Shown: positions 6,820-61,300 of the stretch, piece after piece | Layout of the letters: the number at the start of each line of letters is the position of its first letter | How positions within the stretch are numbered: the stretch's first letter is position 1 | NCBI GenBank assembly: GCA_947561715.1 | Contig: OX387200.1 | Span: forward strand, 17,548,501-17,612,500 | Direction of reading: 5' to 3' | DNA length: 64,000 nucleotides | Origin: Ascidia mentula | Lineage: Eukaryota > Chordata > Ascidiacea > Phlebobranchia > Ascidiidae | Translations under genes and position numbers: made by a program | Notes under the pieces: model-generated | What the model was told of the DNA's origin: nothing | The model's input: only the letters and a program-made list of their open reading frames with translations | Databases searched by the model: none

Positions 6820-9800
6820 TTGGTACCTATGATGAATACCAACGTTACCCAAAACTTGAGTAAAGCGTTGCCATCAACGGTCCAGGCTTTATTGAGGAAG
6901 AGTGGATTGAAACGCATTCCTACGACCCGACACTGCGAGGGCTACACGCAAGCAAACCTTGTGATTCTTCCAAGCTCGCTTGCCGATGACTTTGGGAAAT
7001 TTGCGAAAGGAAATTCCGGTGCTGTTCCATTGTTACACACCAGCAAGCCCGGGGATTTCGGCGCTCCAGGGCTTTGTGAAGATTCCGATGTCAGAACAGA
7101 CCTCCCACTGTACAACGTCATTAAAAACGGTGTCGTCGTTTCGCAAGTAGAAAATTTGAAAGGTGAACAATCGAGCACATAAAAGATAAAGTTATATATA
7201 CTTGCATCTAATATCCGGCCGAATACTTTATGACGTCACAAACTTACATCGGTTGTAAAAATATAAGTATTACCATGCACCAGTGTACCTTGGCCACAAT
7301 ATACCCCATAAAACCACTGAGCTTCTGTAGCTCAGTTGTTAGAGCGTTGGACCTGGTTAGCCCAAGGTCGAGTTCAAACCTCACCGGGAGCTTGATTTTT
7401 TCAGATATCGCTCCGACTTGTCGGGAAAAGTGGCTGATCCAGCTTGACTGCGAAGTCTGTGAACCTTATGATCTTTCGAACATATAATGCAACTTTACCT
7501 TACGTTTTTTTTAGATTTCGACTTGTCAGACATGGTTACATTCTATATCGGATGCAGCTTTTCGTTTTACAAAGCACTAATCAACCACGGAGTCACTACA
7601 GCCAAACAACCTGGCGAGAATGTGTCCATGTACACCACTGATGTTGACTGTTTCCACAGTGGACCGTTCAAATGCAAAATGGTAGTTAGTATGCAGCCAG
7701 TACACGAAAGTAAGCTAAATTTGGCCACCGACGTCACCAACAGTTTGAAGGACGTTCATGGCGGACCAATTCATTTTGGAAACCCGGGTTGGCGGAGCTT
7801 ATGTTTATAGAGTTTGTATAAAATATTATGTTAAATATCCACTTAACCACGACATCTGCAGAAGTTTCTGCACTGCATTGTAATAAGAGTGATTTTTTGT
7901 TAATTTATCTTAAATACACCATATTATTTTTAATCAATCTTATGTCTTAAGTTTTTCATTCCTGTAATGGTACAAAAATTTGGAACAATAAACAGTATTT
8001 TCATGTATTGAAGATTTAATTGGAATCGAAGACGTGACAAAAGTTAGTTTCGGAGATCCGGTCGAAATTGCAGAGGGGTTCGTGCCAGTATTTTGGTGTT
8101 GCGGCGTGACGGGCTTGGAAGCTTTGCGATCAGCCAACTGTGATCTGTCTTTCACGCACGCTCCTGGACACATGTTCATCACCGACCTGTTACAGTCTGA
8201 ACCCAACCTAGAACAACAACCTCCACACCTCTCATCCGAAGTAATCAAGTTTTCAGACAAGCGCCAGCAATACAGCGTGCTCTCAAAGCAGACGAAATCT
8301 ATATTAGAAAAGCTCGCGTCTATCACTGAACAAGACCCAGGGAAAAGAGGAATTCGGCATTTGGCTGTGCCCGGAGATTTTTTGAAGGCCAGTCTGGCTC
8401 TTTCGCACGCACGAAGTGTGGCCCTTATTACTGGATTTCCCGTTAACGATTTAACACCTCCAGATGAAACGGACGGTTTGCCAGGTAAAGGTGGATTTTT
8501 ACACTCCTGTTAACTTTTGATCCTAAACACATAAACCCGGGATGTGCATGAAAGATCAACTTGTTTGGGCCATCGTCACCATTGTAAATTTTAAACCCCT
8601 ATTTTGGTGGTGGTTTTTTATCGCTCATAGTATTTTTGTTTGGGAAAAGCCTGTGTTTCCACTGGGTCACTATCTTGACCTTAAAGCCCACAGATCCCTG
8701 CAGTTGGGAAACCCTGCGTTAAAGCAGCAAAGCGGCTATTAAAAACATTTCGTCGTTTACGTGAAACAAAAACGATGCATTAATTAATGGCACAATCCTG
8801 CACAATAACAAGTTTTCCTTTAACCCAGGAATTTTCAGTTTGGCGGCTGCGCTTCAGGCAGCTAATAAGGAGGTCTCGCTTATCGTCGACTTACACACGC
8901 TGGAGTTCAACCAAACCATCGCCAAGCGCTGCCGCGATCTAGGCATGTTACCGCGTGAGCTTCATGTCGTACCATATTTGCAAGATCAGGATCTCGAAAA
9001 GCAACTTTATGGTTCTGAGCGTCGTTATGACGTCATACTCGCTTCGGAAAGGGTTGGTCGTGGCCAAGATGGATGCTATTACGGCATGTTGGGGAAAAAC
9101 CTTACAGATCGGGTTTCCCCGATTGATGACTTGTACGAAACCGCTTCTCGACGCTCTGACGTTGTCACTGTCGCCATTGGCGACGGTGGGAACGAGTTGG
9201 GTATGGGAAAAGTGATCGACCAGGTCCGGAAGAACATTCCGCTTGGCGATAAGATTGCCTGCGTGGCCGCTGGGGATCTTGTTCTTGCGACAGGTAAGTA
9301 TAATCTCTACGAAGGAAAAAATATAAAAAAAAACATTGCAATTTTCGTGATGATTGGAGCAAACGCCAAATCCCAATCAATTTTTTTTATGTTTTATTTT
9401 CGGTAAGGAACGTGTAACTGGGGATGCTACGCGCTGGGTATTGCGCTGTATGCCCTGAAGTCTTGTCCAATCCATGAGCGATATTTGCGGAAGGCAGTTG
9501 GATTTCCAGAGGATACCAACACTTGGAAAGAATTTTTACCATCAGTTGCGAGGGTAAGGAGTCGAGTCGAAACGTTAACAGTTGTTATAAGACGTGTCAA
9601 GCTAGAACATCGTCAAATCGCTAAACGTTAAACCTAATTATGTTTTTTGTTTCGTTCATTGACTTCTAATCACTTAAATTCAAAGGAAATTTGTATTCAA
9701 AGGAAAGAAAAATCCTTGAAATTGTTGAGGAGTTTGGTGTTAAAGATGGAAGAAGTCCTAACCAAGTTATGTCGGTGGACGGGATGTATTTCGACGAAAA

Positions 9801-36332: not shown

Positions 36333-37706
36333 CTATTTTTTATGTTGAAGTGCATCTTTTTTTGACGACAAGCTCTTCTTTTTAGGTTGCCAGCGTAAAA
36401 AGGCAGTATCAACAGGTAGTCTAGGTCTCTTAAAAAATTGAGATTTTAAATGTTCCTCTATGTGTTTCTGGGTGACGCAAATAACATGTTGCCCTTTCCA
36501 GTACTTCACCATGTTAAGTGACTGCAGTGAAGAGATAATGTCAGCCTGTGTGATGCTGGTCATTTCGCTCAAGTCTTTGATGGAAAGTGTGCCACGAAAG
36601 TCTCTTAAAATTTCCAAAAGAACCCATGTCCAGTAACTCCGGTAGCTCAGTTTGCCTAAATCGGATAAGGGCTTTTCGGGCGAACCAATCATTCGTTCAA
36701 TTTTAGACAATTCATAGCTGAATGCTATGAGGAATTTGCCGTATCCTTTTCTTTGAAATGGTGGCAGTATCAAGATACATGCCAGGTTGTTTCCATCAGG
36801 GCTTTCTTTTTCCTTTGAGAAGTACCCAACCACGTGAGCACCACTGCGGTCCACTTCTGTCATTACGTAAAAGAGAAAAGGCTCCACATCAAAATACAAA
36901 GTCTTGTGGTCCAAAAATAGTTTCGCAAGCAGGCATAAGTTTTGGCAGTAGATTTTGTTGTCTTTTCCATCTATCTCATAAACTGATATTGTTGATTTAC
37001 GGTAAATTTCCTTGCCTGGTGGTTGTCTCCAAGTGCAGTCCGTAAGGTGTCTTCTGTACGTACACTCAAGACGCATGTACTTGAAACAGAACTCGCACAC
37101 ATACAATTTTGGCTGTTTTCCATATTCATCAGGATAGGGTGAAAAATACCATGCATCAATTTCGTACCGACCCAACTGAATCCGATCAATATACTTAATT
37201 TTGGTGATTGCCTCATGCTCTCTCTCCAAAGCAGCAGTGGCCGGATCCATTTCGGCATAAGACTTCTGCACATGATTAATTTCATCATGCTTTCGTTTCT
37301 GATTTCTTGTCATACGGTTGTCTACGTTTTCTGTGTTCTCACCAGGTGTGGCAACTGTTGTGTTGGTCTCAACTACTTGTTTTGTTGTGTCGATGCGGCT
37401 GGCATCAACCCACTCATCAAGTCTACGGTTACAGCCACGGTAGTGTACATAGTACTCATGGCAGTGACCTCGTGATGCATTTATTCGCTTTTGAATTACT
37501 TCAGCAATGTGTGTTGTGCCATCACTGCGGCAACAATGGTACAATCCATTGATAATAATTTTGGAGTCTTGTGTCCGATCCAAACATTCAGGTGCAGGTT
37601 TTTCAAGTACTTCCACAATACCGGTGTCGGTTTGTGCTTTCTTCTGAGCTTCAGCATCATTGGGATTCTCTGAGGCACATTTTTCACCTGGAGTAGTGAC
37701 ATCCAT
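36333..37706 (-). CDS. KAT8: MYST-family histone acetyltransferase KAT8 (MOF)
   Basis: A single uninterrupted exon encodes 457 residues (human 458). In order: chromo-barrel domain (about 51-106, [17 protein letters not shown]), MYST C2HC zinc finger with C204, C207, H220 and C224, and the acetyltransferase domain with K268 (the autoacetylated lysine position), catalytic C310 in [11 protein letters not shown], acetyl-CoA loop QRKGYG (318-323) and E344 in [14 protein letters not shown]8 acetylates histone H4 lysine 16 in the MSL and NSL complexes. An in-frame ATG at 37781 lies upstream of a splice acceptor (gactttag, exon from 37722), so I take 37706 as the start. The lack of introns is unlike its neighbours and could reflect an old retroposition or intron loss. 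Confidence 0.96.
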
Positions 37707-37787
37707 TTTGTTGTCATCAGAACTAAAGTCTTTAACAAAAAAAGCAATGTTTAACACTCGCAAAATGATACCCAAGTGCATGCATGG
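37707..37787 (-). promoter_or_regulatory. 81 bp intercistronic gap with acceptor, ZSWIM-like to KAT8
   Basis: The upstream stop codon is at 37790-37788 and KAT8 starts at 37706. Between them is an acceptor (ctttttttgttaaagacttta-g, AG at 37724-37723). There is no AATAAA and no room for an ordinary promoter. I infer trans-splicing in a polycistronic transcript. The alternative is cis splicing from the donor after GAGCTTG, which would read KAT8's first 80 codons in another frame. Confidence 0.5.
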
Positions 37788-45100: not shown

Positions 45101-48100
45101 CGTGTAACAGTTACCCTGCCTCACTTGACCCCTTCCACCTTCATTATCCTAAATAACTGCTCGGCTTACGTGTAGTTTATGTGGCAAATCACTGATGAAA
45201 AATTGGAATATTATTCCATAATTTTGTTCGTTTTCATGTACGTTTTACGTTTTAGGTATGGTCGTCGGCCAGCGTTCTGCTGGGGAACTCTCATACAGTT
45301 TGTTTGCATTGTTATTTTAAGTTTTTCAACTAACGTGACGATGTACTGCGTGTGCTTACTTATCACCGGACTTTCGGCAATGACAAACTACGTCGCTGCT
45401 TTTGTCATAGGTAAATTAGCACAGTCATTACTTTGGTTTTGTCAGCGAACTCCCAGGTGCCTAAAGTTTAACATACATGGACTGTCTAACCTTTATTGCG
45501 AGGCCTGCGCACGAACACAAGTAACGGGTTTGCAACAAAACTCAGGTTCTGAGATCTCGGATTCTTCAAAACGGGCGTTGATGGGAAGTATGGAGGTTGC
45601 CGGATTTACAATAGGATACATGATTTTGCCTGTTTTCGCTTACTTGTTTCCATATTGGAGGACACTCGTACGAATAACTGGATTCGGAGGCATCATATTT
45701 ATTCCCTATTATTGGTAGGTGATTTCTTTTCCAAAAGGAAACGTGGTCATTGATATAGCCAGGGAGTTCTGAGGGGCCATATATGGTCTCTCTCAAATCT
45801 CTTTATTTACAATTAAAGATTTTTAATTGTGTATAAGCTGCAGACAGATGGCCACTGTTTCGACCTAAAAGGTCTTGGCCATAGTGTTTCCACCTTGTTT
45901 TCTCCGTTTTGGTGGAACGTAGTTTAGTGCCCAACGGATGACGGTGATTGTATAGTCACCACAAAGTGGAAGTCTTTGCTTCGCCGATTGGTCAGCAAAG
46001 TCGTCTTATAGTCACAACAGCTGCACTGATGAGACCTTTTAGGTCGAAACAGTGGCCATCTGTCTGCAGCTTATACACAATTCATATTATTGGCTCCACA
46101 TTGCTTATCAAAAGATTTTTAAATTTGGATTTCTCATCATACTCAATTTGTCATAAAGTACGCTTGTTCGACAATTTAATTTTTGCTCACTTTGCACCAC
46201 AAAAAATTCTGGCTGGTTACGTTCCTTATTGTGGCTCTTGCTTGTGACCGAAGGTTGATCCCGGAATCGCCAAGATGGCTGTTGAATGCTGGCCGCGAAA
46301 AAGAAGCCCTAAAAATAATTAAAAAGATCGCCCGAGTTAATGGAAAGACACTCGTGGAAAAGGACTACGTGATTCCAGACAACCATGAAAAATTGGTAAA
46401 ACACTGCGACTATGGGTTGTTGTATAATCTTGTTGGTTTCCCTTCGATATATATACAGATCGACGAAAGCGGTGTTGGAAAGATCGAAGTAAAAAAATAC
46501 ACATATCTTGACCTGTTTGTAGAAGCAGCGACGCGAAGGCGAATCCTTGTCATGTTCTTGCAATGGTAAGGTACATGTGATCTTGCGATGGTAAGGTACA
46601 TGTGATCTTGCGATGGTAAGGTACATGTGATCTTACAATTGTAAGGTACATCTTGCGATGGTAAGGTACATGTGATCTTGCAATGGTAAGGTACATGTGA
46701 TCTTGCAATAAGGTACATGTGATCTTGCAAACGGTAACGTACTCGTGACAAACTTAGCTGGCGGGCAGTCAGGTGTAAATGTTTGCATTAGTTGTGAGGT
46801 AAAGTGGCTCACCAAACCCCAGGCTAATATTTGGAAAAAAAGGCATGATGGTCTGTCGTGCACTTGATTGATTGTGTTCCATTTGTTGGTTTGTTTTAAA
46901 AGTTTCAATCTGGACAAACATCCTGATGTAATTGGCAGCAAACATATTGTGGAAGTGGAAAAACTTTTAAGAAGGGGGCGACTATATACAAAAATACCGA
47001 AAGATTTTAAAGAAAGAACGCATGGGTTCTCAAGCTTAACCCTGTTTATCTATAATACAATTTACGAAAACTGAAGATCCAGGTTTAGATCATTATTCAC
47101 GCTTTGAACAGTTGTAACATTGAGTAACTGTTTTCCAAGGTTTACATGCAGTCTGATATATTACTGCATCAGCCTCAACTCCTCAAATTTGGGAGGGAAC
47201 AGCTACGTGGTGTGCTTTATCGCCGCTGGTGTCGAGATTCCAGCCTACTTGAGTATGTATTTTATGGCTGAAAAAGCTGGAAGACGATATTGTATGGCAG
47301 TTATGCTCGGGGCCTCTGCAATCAGCTGCTTTCTTTCACCATTCATTCGCCAAGGTAATGATTGTATGTTTATAAAATAATAACATAATGCATATGATGT
47401 GACCCGCAAGCAAGTATATTCAGTTATTGGAAAAGTAGGGTAACAGATAACTAACCAGGTCTTAATTATAATTATGGCACATATTATTTCTAAAACTGAA
47501 TTCAAGTCTTAGCTTCTGTGTTTCAAGTTAATCACGATGCTCTCCAATCATTTTATCGTTAACCAAATTACTTTAAAAGACGCAGTAGGATAATTTGCTC
47601 CATGATTCATAACCTCGCAGCAAATGAAACGGCGAGTATCGTGGTTGCAATGTTTGGAAAACTCACAATCAGCGCCGCCTTCGGCCTTGTTTACATTTAT
47701 TGCGGTGAGTTGTTTCCAACCATGATGAGGAACATGAGCATTGGATCCTCTTCCACAATGGCCCGGGTGGGAGCAGCCATTGCCCCTTACTTGGTGTTTG
47801 CTGGTAAGTTGCAGATGCTTATTATATTTGAAACTAACTGTACATAAGTGTCCAGGTGTACATTTTATTTCCAAATGCCGCTGTGCGTGATTTAGATGGA
47901 GCAACATTGTAAAAAAACAAAGGGATTTTAAAACGGATTCAAATTAATGAGAGCTGCAGACAGGGTGTGTACGTGGCACTGTGGTAGCTGGTAGACTAGC
48001 AGGCACACAGATTTCCACTTTGTGATACCTTTCGGTCAATCGTCGATATGTTGGGTACCAAACTAGGTACCAATCAACACAGACGAACCACGGATTCAAA

Positions 48101-58300: not shown

Positions 58301-61300
58301 CAGAAATAAATCAAGGAATTGTCTTCAGCGTATTTACAACTATTCCCACTAATCTGCTCAGCAACTTCTTACGACTCTGCGTTTGTATGTGCTATAAATG
58401 CCATCCACAACAAAGCGAATTAACGCCTTTGGCAATGAGACATTTTCGTCTGTGTACTGCGTGCTACATATTTCATCTCGCCAACCCACGGCTTCGTAGA
58501 TAGTGGCGACGATGTAACTGATATGAAACCTACAAGTTTTCTATATGTGGCAACTTCGTGCTTTTCATGAGCCAAGCAACAAACTATATGTTCTTTTCCC
58601 CTCAAGGGTGAAATGCGTTCGAAATTTATGGTTTACCATCTAGTGTCGGCGTTATGAGTCTGGCGACGCTTCCTCTGACAATGTTGGAGGCTTCAATGAA
58701 GGCGTATCTTCCTTCTGCAATTGGCACACTTACAATGTACGAATAATAAGATTTCAAGTACACTTGCGAATGGACTGGACATCAGACAATACCATACTTA
58801 AATTATACCATTAGTCCCAGTGTTGCTGTCAAACTCCGGACCAGTTCCGGTGGTGGGGGTAGAACCGCGTGTGAAAGACCAATCAAAGTCGTCCTCGCCA
58901 GTCACCTGTGACCACCCTGTCCGAATTGTTTGTAAGATCAGATCTTGGGTCAAACTTGCAAACGGTCCTAAGATCTTGTAAGATAACCGCGAGTGTCGAA
59001 AATAAACAGTTTAAAAACGCCCCTGTGGGATCTGTGAGAGATTGCACCGTGGCACCGTAGCGTGTATACATGTACATAAACATGCACTTTCAATTTTATT
59101 TGTCTTCATAAGGCACTTTAGCTACACAACATTTATATTATGTATACAGTACATATTCATCATTATGGTGTATGCAAATCAAGGTTATGACTTATTCGAA
59201 CAATATATTATGTTTTTTTAAATTAATATTTTATTAGTTTTGATACATAGATTGATTGCAATGCAGTTGGTCATACCTGGGCACAAAGCGAACCCTTCGT
59301 CAAATGCGCAGTCCATTTGGGGCGGTAACTTTCCTCGGTCCATCGCATTCCATTTAATAGCGAAACCCTCGGCAGTGACTGAGTTGTCTGTGAAGAACTC
59401 AACTCTATCCAGAAAAAATGCACAAGTTGAACAAACCACGGCGAGTCGATTTTTTCTAAATTAATTCCAAGCCATGCTTTACGAGTTTCAAAGGGTTTTC
59501 GGTAGTATAAGCGCCACCGTTTAAGCGAATGTTTTATGAAGATTTCGCCTTGGCTACCACACACCAAGGAACATAGCTTACGGTTTTAAAAACTGTGTAT
59601 AAACTGCAGACAGATGGCCAGTGTTTCGACCTAAAAGGTCTCATCAGTGCAGCTGGTGTGACTATAAGACGACTTAGCTGACCAAAGGGTCAAGCAAAGA
59701 CTTCCACTTTGTGGTGACTATACAATCACCGTCATGCGATGGGCACCAAACTAGGTGCAACCTTACTGAGAAAACAGTGGAAGTCTTTGCTTGGCCGTTT
59801 GGTCAGCAGAGTCGTCTTATAGTCACACCAGCTGCAATGATGAGACCTTTTAGGTCGAAATATATTATTATTATTGGCTCTACATCGCTTATCATATGGT
59901 TTTAAAAACTTTCATAATGAAAAACAAAGGTCATATGACTGAAACCAAATACATTCTTTGCAAACGCATTTCGATATCGTTTACCATTCTCGTACTTGCA
60001 TTTATAAGTTAATTATTGAGCATTTAAACTAAACTTGCGAAGAATTTGCTTCAGGTAATTAGAGCCTTGTTGTTTCTGTTGTACTCAATTAAGTGCATTC
60101 TATAGCAAATCTTTTAAGAAATTCTTCAAAACACCTAAAAATTCAATGTTTACGAAAGTGATCATGAGTCAAGTTATCCTTCCGGCCATTTCACGTGTAT
60201 TTATTGCAAACACAAACACTCTGGTGCAGTGTTTTCCAGCCAGTAAATGCGAAATCTTCCATAGGGCCGCGAAGCGTGTTACTATATACAGTAGTGACGT
60301 AACATTCAATGCTACATCTCGGGGGTAGGCAAAGTTGCTCACTGTTAAACTCATCTATTTAAAAAACAACAATCTAATCGTGATAAAAGTTTGTCGCATT
60401 ATCCCAGGTGCGGTCCCCCATAAAATTGTAATTAGGAGTGGGACGCTAGCTGGATAGTGAGTTTAACTCACATCAACTTGTTTTCCGGTGTGGCGTCTTC
60501 ATATATGATGTCTTCTCCACAATACTGTTCTATCCAACTAGTATTCTCACCCAGCACGTAATGAATGTTCACCGCGTCGAAACATCTCTCCGCTCCAATC
60601 CCGGGAAGTTCCAAATTTAGGTACAAACTTCGAAACTTTGAAATAAACAGTGATTCGTAACCACGGTTACGTGCACCCCGTTGCGGTTTCAAGACGGTGT
60701 AAAGCTTGCGGCAAATTCAAACAAACTTATACATAAAATTGAGTGTTACAAGCGTTACATTAAACTACACGCATTTTGCTTGACCACAGTGTTTCTACCT
60801 TGGTTGGTTTCCGGTGGGTTATACTAACGGTTAAAGGTGGTTGTATATTCACCACAAAGTGGAAGTCACAAAATAGCTGCGATGTTGAGGCCTTTTAGGT
60901 CAAAACAGTGGCCCTGTCGGGGACTCACTATAAAAACTTTATTGGCTCTATTACTCATACACTTATTTAATTTGCTTGGGTATAACATTGGAAAAGGGTG
61001 TGGGCAGGTATGAAAGTGGGATGCGAACAAGGAGAAAAGAGCTTTAATCAAAACAAAGGCGGGTGTCATGGAGACCTGCATTGTATTCCAGTGAGGAATT
61101 TAACTTGGACGAAGTGTCATTACACAACTCTCAGTTTTAAAAAGTTTTGCTCTTGGGTGCTATTTCATTATTGATACAGGGTTGTGTATATTGTTTCGTA
61201 ATGGTAACTGTCATTGTTATTACATGCTAATGTCATCGACACCTTATATATGGCATTTATATTTAAAGTAAATTGCCACAAGCATTTTGCAGATAACCAT

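Follow-up and report, generated by a model that had tools for sequence, protein, structure and literature searches.

The window analysed here, the whole stretch of 64,000 nucleotides from Ascidia mentula, contains a KAT8 gene, an SLC22-like coding frame and two head-to-head copies of a 285-nt element, the first of which lies 5' of the SLC22-like frame and carries a complete hammerhead ribozyme motif. The features are, in order of position:

36333-37787, minus strand: KAT8 (79% identity to Ciona intestinalis, 78% to Styela clava)
45815-45826: left target-site duplication, 12 bp, AAAGATTTTTAA
45827-46110: complete retrozyme insertion, a minus arm followed head to head by a plus arm (alignment to a tandem unit of locus L010)
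45827-45875, minus strand: minus arm, unit positions 251-203, 100% identity to the unit (alignment)
45874-46110, plus strand: plus arm, unit positions 45-282, 93% identity to the unit (alignment)
46019-46071, plus strand: type I hammerhead, open at helix I (direct reading, motif scan and simulated windows)
46019-46025 and 46065-46071, plus strand: helix I, 7 bp, AGCTGCA and TGCAGCT
46026-46032, plus strand: core CTGATGA
46033-46045, plus strand: helix II, 5 bp, GACCT-TTT-AGGTC
46046-46048, plus strand: core GAA
46049-46063, plus strand: helix III, 4 bp, ACAG-TGGCCAT-CTGT
46064, plus strand: C17, with the predicted cut between 46064 and 46065
46111-46122: right target-site duplication, 12 bp, AAAGATTTTTAA
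46210-46395, plus strand: SLC22-like coding frame 3' of the insertion (8 distinct solved-structure sequences matched)
59594-59897: second head-to-head copy of the 285-nt retrozyme (alignment, motif scan)
59582-59593 and 59898-59909: 12-bp duplication flanking the second copy, GGTTTTAAAAAC

The structures matched by the plus-strand frame 46210-46395 include SLC22 members 1 and 3 (best E 5.5e-6); the element therefore sits in sense orientation in an SLC22 intron, as had been proposed. A minisatellite (46556-46742, period 25, 7.8 copies) follows directly after the SLC22 exon ending at about 46566, and Rfam annotates a tRNA elsewhere in the window, at 7321-7392 (32.7 bits, cut-off 29).

The hammerhead that the earlier note had claimed at 46019-46071 is present letter for letter on direct reading. 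With minimum helix lengths of 6, 5 and 4 bp, a motif scan of both window strands returns 46019-46071 as the sole place, and it returns no place in 60 simulated windows with the dinucleotide make-up of the window. Helices of 5, 4 and 3 bp add a second place in the window, on the minus strand at 59647-59609, and again none in the 60 simulated windows, where a single place appears at 4, 3 and 2 bp. The same note had taken the absence of a covariance-model match above threshold as speaking against its reading, and no such match was found for 46019-46071: none of the hammerhead families of Rfam 15 reaches its gathering score in the window. With E values up to 10 admitted, the best line is RAGATH-1-hammerhead (RF03152), followed by Hammerhead_3 (RF00008); the core and helix II of both align with the window hammerhead, at scores far under gathering (24.2 bits against 56.3 and 22.3 bits against 48.5, respectively), and the listing shows the best family per clan only, hence the score of Hammerhead_1 is not displayed. 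The Rfam hammerhead cut-offs are likewise reached by none of six related loci, of which L097 and L101 give sub-threshold hammerhead lines and L010, L094, L096 and L100 give no hammerhead line at E of 1 or below. A whole-genome search with RAGATH-1 returned 0 matches and is uninformative, since control genomes also returned 0. In addition, the 65 nt around the motif fold with a z-score of -1.48, equalled or bettered by 17 of 200 shuffles. Across the 195.8 Mb and 79 contigs of the genome, however, a pattern based on the ribozyme matches 833 places (439 + 394), while the reversed pattern, used as a control, matches none (0 + 0). This difference outweighs both the Rfam miss and the ordinary fold energy, and the hammerhead motif at 46019-46071 is confirmed.

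The matches are dispersed across large contigs and belong to a unit of about 285 bp that also occurs in tandem copies, as in the six units of L010, whose unit has a G+C content of 47.4%. Together with target-site duplications, the unit length, the tandem arrays and the dispersed copies support the retrozyme-like element suggested earlier: the hammerhead element is an animal retrozyme, small and non-autonomous, and the window element is, by sequence, a further member of this known class. In a second subfamily, represented by L097 and L101, the hammerhead is the same except that its helix III loop is longer; 40 nt of the ribozyme half match the first subfamily at 90% identity, and identity is 69.5% over a 141-nt alignment that takes in the same positions on the other arm. 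Read by eye, the L097 insertion has a flanking duplication of 12 nt (at 848-859 and again at 1146-1157), and its outer ends extend 31 nt past helix I on the left and 5 nt on the right, one long and one short. The head-to-head copy at 919-1112 of L097 also gives microRNA precursor scores under the cut-offs (MIR6140, 79.4 against 140; mir-34, 42.3 against 53.4), which are likely a false call of a kind that any long inverted repeat can produce.

Retrozyme insertions were called at a length of at least 60 bp and an identity of at least 90%, with shorter or more diverged pieces dropped. Eighty-three records, namely 81 loci fetched through the ribozyme sequence or pattern and the two window places, yielded 80 insertions; these constitute a sample, because the loci were picked by similarity or among the 100 pattern places listed first, which all lie on contig C1. 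The set excludes L001-L008 and L030-L033, as the same places were covered by other loci (mostly so for L001-L008) or refetched. The outer ends of the insertions cluster at two sites: S, at unit positions 244-266, lies about 16 nt beyond the cut site, and T, at unit positions 267-285 (and some bases further with the reference rotated), lies about 48 nt beyond it. Both were called from local alignments and are to be understood as clusters, not single bases. The window insertion combines the two: its short inverted arm (45827-45875) begins at S and is without the CTGATGA half of the ribozyme, and its longer direct arm (45874-46110) begins at T and carries the complete hammerhead. In the second window copy, the core of the minus arm is intact with a helix III of 3 bp (59647-59609), and the plus arm has the first C of CTGATGA altered. 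Two further retrozyme-like pieces, older or diverged, are found at 60826-60913 (88% over 42 nt and 84% over 50 nt).

Both orientations are present in 39 of the 80 insertions, always minus then plus and thus head to head; the other 41 are single-armed (23 minus only, 18 plus only). Among the two-armed insertions, S is paired with T in 35 of 39, with S first in 25 and T first in 10, and the remainder comprise one S with S, no T with T and three with one end outside both clusters. When the ends are shuffled, the S/T pairing averages 17.8 and has a maximum of 29, so that 0 of 20,000 shuffles reach 35, and with the reference rotated the pairing is still found in 34 of 39. These counts include some non-independent cases: two neighbours within L071 are nearly identical and each was scored as S/T, and pairs resembling duplicated segments are present in L046, L047 and L092. 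Flanking duplications of at least 7 nt accompany 11 of the 39 two-armed insertions, compared with 4 of the 1482 pairs obtained by swapping flanks, and duplications of at least 5 nt accompany 18 of 39 against 41 of 1482; no duplication of at least 7 nt lies within 3 nt of the called ends in 28 of 39. The 3' end sites are fixed and the 5' ends variable, with inner junctions that differ from copy to copy. At the head-to-head junctions, the arms overlap by 1-6 nt in 21 of 39 insertions, are joined bluntly in 2, are separated by extra bases in 13 and overlap further in 3, a distribution which may hint at arm joining by short homology.

Arms longer than 290 nt account for 24 of 119, the longest measuring 1680 nt. 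Inner ends fall at the cut site in 2 of 119 arms, a count that was set aside because most loci had been chosen by a pattern or query spanning the cut site, and at the 5' foot of helix I (unit positions 186-195) in 17 of 119, distributed over L013-L093 and possibly subject to the same selection bias. Arms ending at positions 186-195 produce short insertions of little more than the ribozyme. Among 166 copies selected by their tail, 158 reach the cut site exactly and 147 cross it exactly, counts that include units inside tandem arrays, which necessarily span the cut site; most templates therefore ran through the cut site, as expected of an uncut multimer or of a circle closed by ligation. Divergence is 1.31% between units within an arm, 2.68% between the opposite arms of an insertion and 5.22% between separate insertions. 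Of 70 minority letters in minus arms, 15 are common to the plus arm against 4.3 expected, which is suggestive of both arms having been copied from one RNA.

The genome also harbours Penelope-like elements (PLEs), with at least 150 places each in searches for RVT_1 and for GIY-YIG domains. In three PLE frames that were read, RVT_1 is found in all three (once just under the cut-off) and GIY-YIG in two. Among the GIY-YIG matches listed, neighbours less than 6 kb apart are arranged minus then plus in 22 cases, plus then minus in none and on one strand in 12. All three PLE insertions for which both outer ends were fetched combine an inner-site end with an outer-site end about 40 nt apart:

L110/L111: PLE insertion, outer ends 587 and 546
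L113/L112: PLE insertion, outer ends 666 and 627
L114/L115: PLE insertion, outer ends 671 and 629

Minimal hammerheads in which a palindromic ANNT replaces helix III can be recognized by eye in the PLE loci L094, L096, L098 and L100, with a less regular example in L095; the motif scan did not list them at its thresholds. The PLE tails that were read bear no clear likeness to the retrozyme tail. On the small contigs C15, C21, C49 and C51, RVT_1 lies in open frames of 3,977 to 19,197 amino acids, which perhaps represent tandem arrays of a stop-free element.

The retrozyme insertions show a PLE signature, with S and T used in a complementary manner within one insertion. Since head-to-head arms with a one-sided tail are known for PLEs and the same pairing is seen in the three PLE insertions of this genome that were examined, it is probable that PLE machinery mobilises the animal retrozyme, with circular or multimeric RNA as the template. 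The account favoured here, which is held with good though not high confidence, is that the 285-nt retrozyme is moved by a PLE reverse transcriptase/GIY-YIG enzyme through two-ended priming at S and T, with arms derived from a circle or a multimer. First, by analogy with other animals, the hammerhead, perhaps as a dimer, would cut multimeric transcripts, and the monomers would be ligated into circles. Next, in a step supported by the anatomy of the insertions, the Penelope-like enzyme would open the target with a short stagger; both target DNA ends would then prime reverse transcription of retrozyme RNA, one at S and the other at T, and the two cDNA arms would join head to head at variable points, often leaving duplications of 7-12 bp. 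Finally, synthesis over more than one turn of the circle, or along a multimer, may generate the arms that are observed as tandem arrays. Speaking against this account are the sub-threshold Rfam scores, the 28 of 39 two-armed insertions that show no duplication of at least 7 nt, the 41 single-armed insertions and the lack of clear likeness between the PLE tails and the retrozyme tail.

A PLE enzyme has been described that cuts and extends both strands and begins synthesis at two neighbouring sites inside the RNA, which delimit the tail; in the portion of that work available, the start site does not differ between the strands (PMC11167929). Head-to-head Penelope copies had earlier been interpreted as self-priming on an antisense template, according to the accessible text of PMC3846280; the S/T pairing found here favours a single event in which both strands are primed. 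A more specific version, in which a pair of PLE reverse transcriptases extends both target ends simultaneously on one retrozyme circle, each from a different start site, so that two opposed rolling-circle arms arise and the inverted copy silences the ribozyme, is judged evenly poised between true and false. If true, the insertions would provide direct genomic evidence for PLEs mobilising animal retrozymes and for two start sites used together, one per DNA strand. Dozens of insertions can be read that end in the PLE manner, in a genome whose PLEs have such ends too; they offer a clean, testable case for PLE-moved retrozymes, and bear on which enzyme, from which RNA, moves animal retrozymes.

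Among the alternatives, the one that survives best shares the retrozyme and its PLE-type integration and holds that the template is an uncut linear multimer transcribed from an array, with a hammerhead that is dispensable for movement; it is regarded as somewhat doubtful and still a serious possibility. Such a template accounts for the near-universal run-through of the cut site in tail-selected copies as well as a circle does. Furthermore, as reported in the accessible part of PMC11167929, hammerhead mutants left insertion by the PLE enzyme in vitro unaffected, and unprocessed RNA was its dominant substrate. Against it, retrozyme RNA is largely circular in coral, mussel and axolotl (PMC7229834, available in part), and the difference of 1.3% within arms against 5.2% between insertions fits one circle recopied, though a homogeneous array would fit equally. 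A circular template is preferred here because circles have been demonstrated in other animals (PMC7229834, as far as accessible), and the circle would accordingly be assigned to this retrozyme by analogy.

Two further explanations are rejected on end structure and considered highly improbable. A MITE-like DNA transposon, in which a transposase would act on true terminal inverted repeats and the hammerhead would be incidental, is suggested by the 60-nt inverted arms of the window copy, which are 93% complementary, and by its 12-bp duplication; the two outer ends of the insertions, however, are unlike (S and T), inner junctions are variable, arms are tandem arrays in many copies and 41 of 80 insertions have a single orientation. 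An ordinary satellite amplified by recombination, without retrotransposition, would agree with the existence of 285-bp tandem units and with the pairs in L046, L047, L071 and L092 that resemble duplications of larger segments, but not with copies that are dispersed, are flanked by target-site duplications and have variable 5' ends but fixed sites for the 3' end.

Folding predictions bear on the activity of the ribozyme. For one copy, the hammerhead fold (-16.0) is 1.4 kcal/mol less stable than the best fold (-17.4) and has a predicted probability of 0.014 with tertiary contacts ignored; two copies are predicted to cofold as a double hammerhead (-47.7) through the TGGCCA loop. Self-cutting of the retrozyme RNA is plausible. 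Within the intron (45719-46209), the inverted arm at 45825-45875 is predicted to form a duplex with 46032-46082; of the 11 pairs sampled between inverted arm and ribozyme, 10 have a probability of at least 0.98 and the outermost has one of 0.71, and the pairs of hammerhead helices I and II, which the calculation covers, have a probability of 0.0. The suggestion that the hammerhead could cut the SLC22 pre-mRNA is therefore not favoured, since the ribozyme strand is predicted to be trapped in a duplex with the inverted arm; in these models, cleavage at equilibrium is not expected, and the element is probably a mostly silent passenger of the SLC22 intron. Co-option of the intronic hammerhead to control SLC22 through pre-mRNA cutting, for which its sense orientation and intact core could be adduced, is very improbable, given the predicted sequestration and given that this hammerhead is one of 833 matches and that its element, with a perfect flanking duplication of 12 bp, resembles an ordinary insertion.

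Besides the Rfam families treated above, the retrozyme described here can be compared with three known systems. The animal non-LTR retrozymes, as described in the parts of PMC7229834 available, have units of 150-450 bp, a range into which the 285-bp unit falls, and share with it tandem copies, a type I hammerhead, duplications of more than 4 bp (12 bp for both window copies) and PLEs in the same genome; the unit G+C of 47.4% is under the 50% given in the text of that work and not under the 45% of its Figure 1. PLEs are regarded there as strong candidate movers on account of shared type I hammerheads, tandem occurrence and co-existence (PMC7229834). The class is also marked by linear and circular transcripts that cleave themselves. 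By eye, helix I of the window hammerhead has no evident clear loop, nor are the canonical loop 1 - loop 2 contacts of retrozymes evident; a mussel retrozyme is also without most of the conserved loop-contact bases (PMC7229834, accessible text). Among ascidians, nine loci of type I hammerhead are recorded for Didemnum in the available portion of PMC8704543. Two-armed head-to-head insertions with S and T ends, as found here, are not described for retrozymes in what is accessible of PMC7229834, and no prior report of them was found in the literature searched, with subscription journals largely outside it.

The second comparison concerns dimeric hammerheads, known from newts and the axolotl (PMC7229834) and from PLEs (PMC7761336), which, in the text available for both, share with the retrozyme the self-complementary TGGCCA in the helix III loop; the double-hammerhead cofold predicted for two retrozyme copies is a further parallel, whereas the 4-bp helix III of the retrozyme also permits the monomer form. 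The third comparison is with PLEs themselves, in which, as far as the accessible parts of PMC3846280 and PMC11167929 describe them, head-to-head arms, short target-site duplications, partial tandems and, at just one outer end, a tail of about 30 nt occur as they do in the retrozyme insertions. Penelope inserts carry an inverted pLTR with a 9-bp duplication and are mostly head to head, and a 31-bp tail is optional on one of the inverted pLTRs (PMC3846280, in the portion available). In contrast, PLEs encode a reverse transcriptase with a GIY-YIG endonuclease, for which the 285-nt unit is too short, and the PLE hammerheads of this genome have a palindromic ANNT in place of the 4 bp and 7-nt loop of the retrozyme helix III. 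The retrozyme inserts like a PLE without being one.
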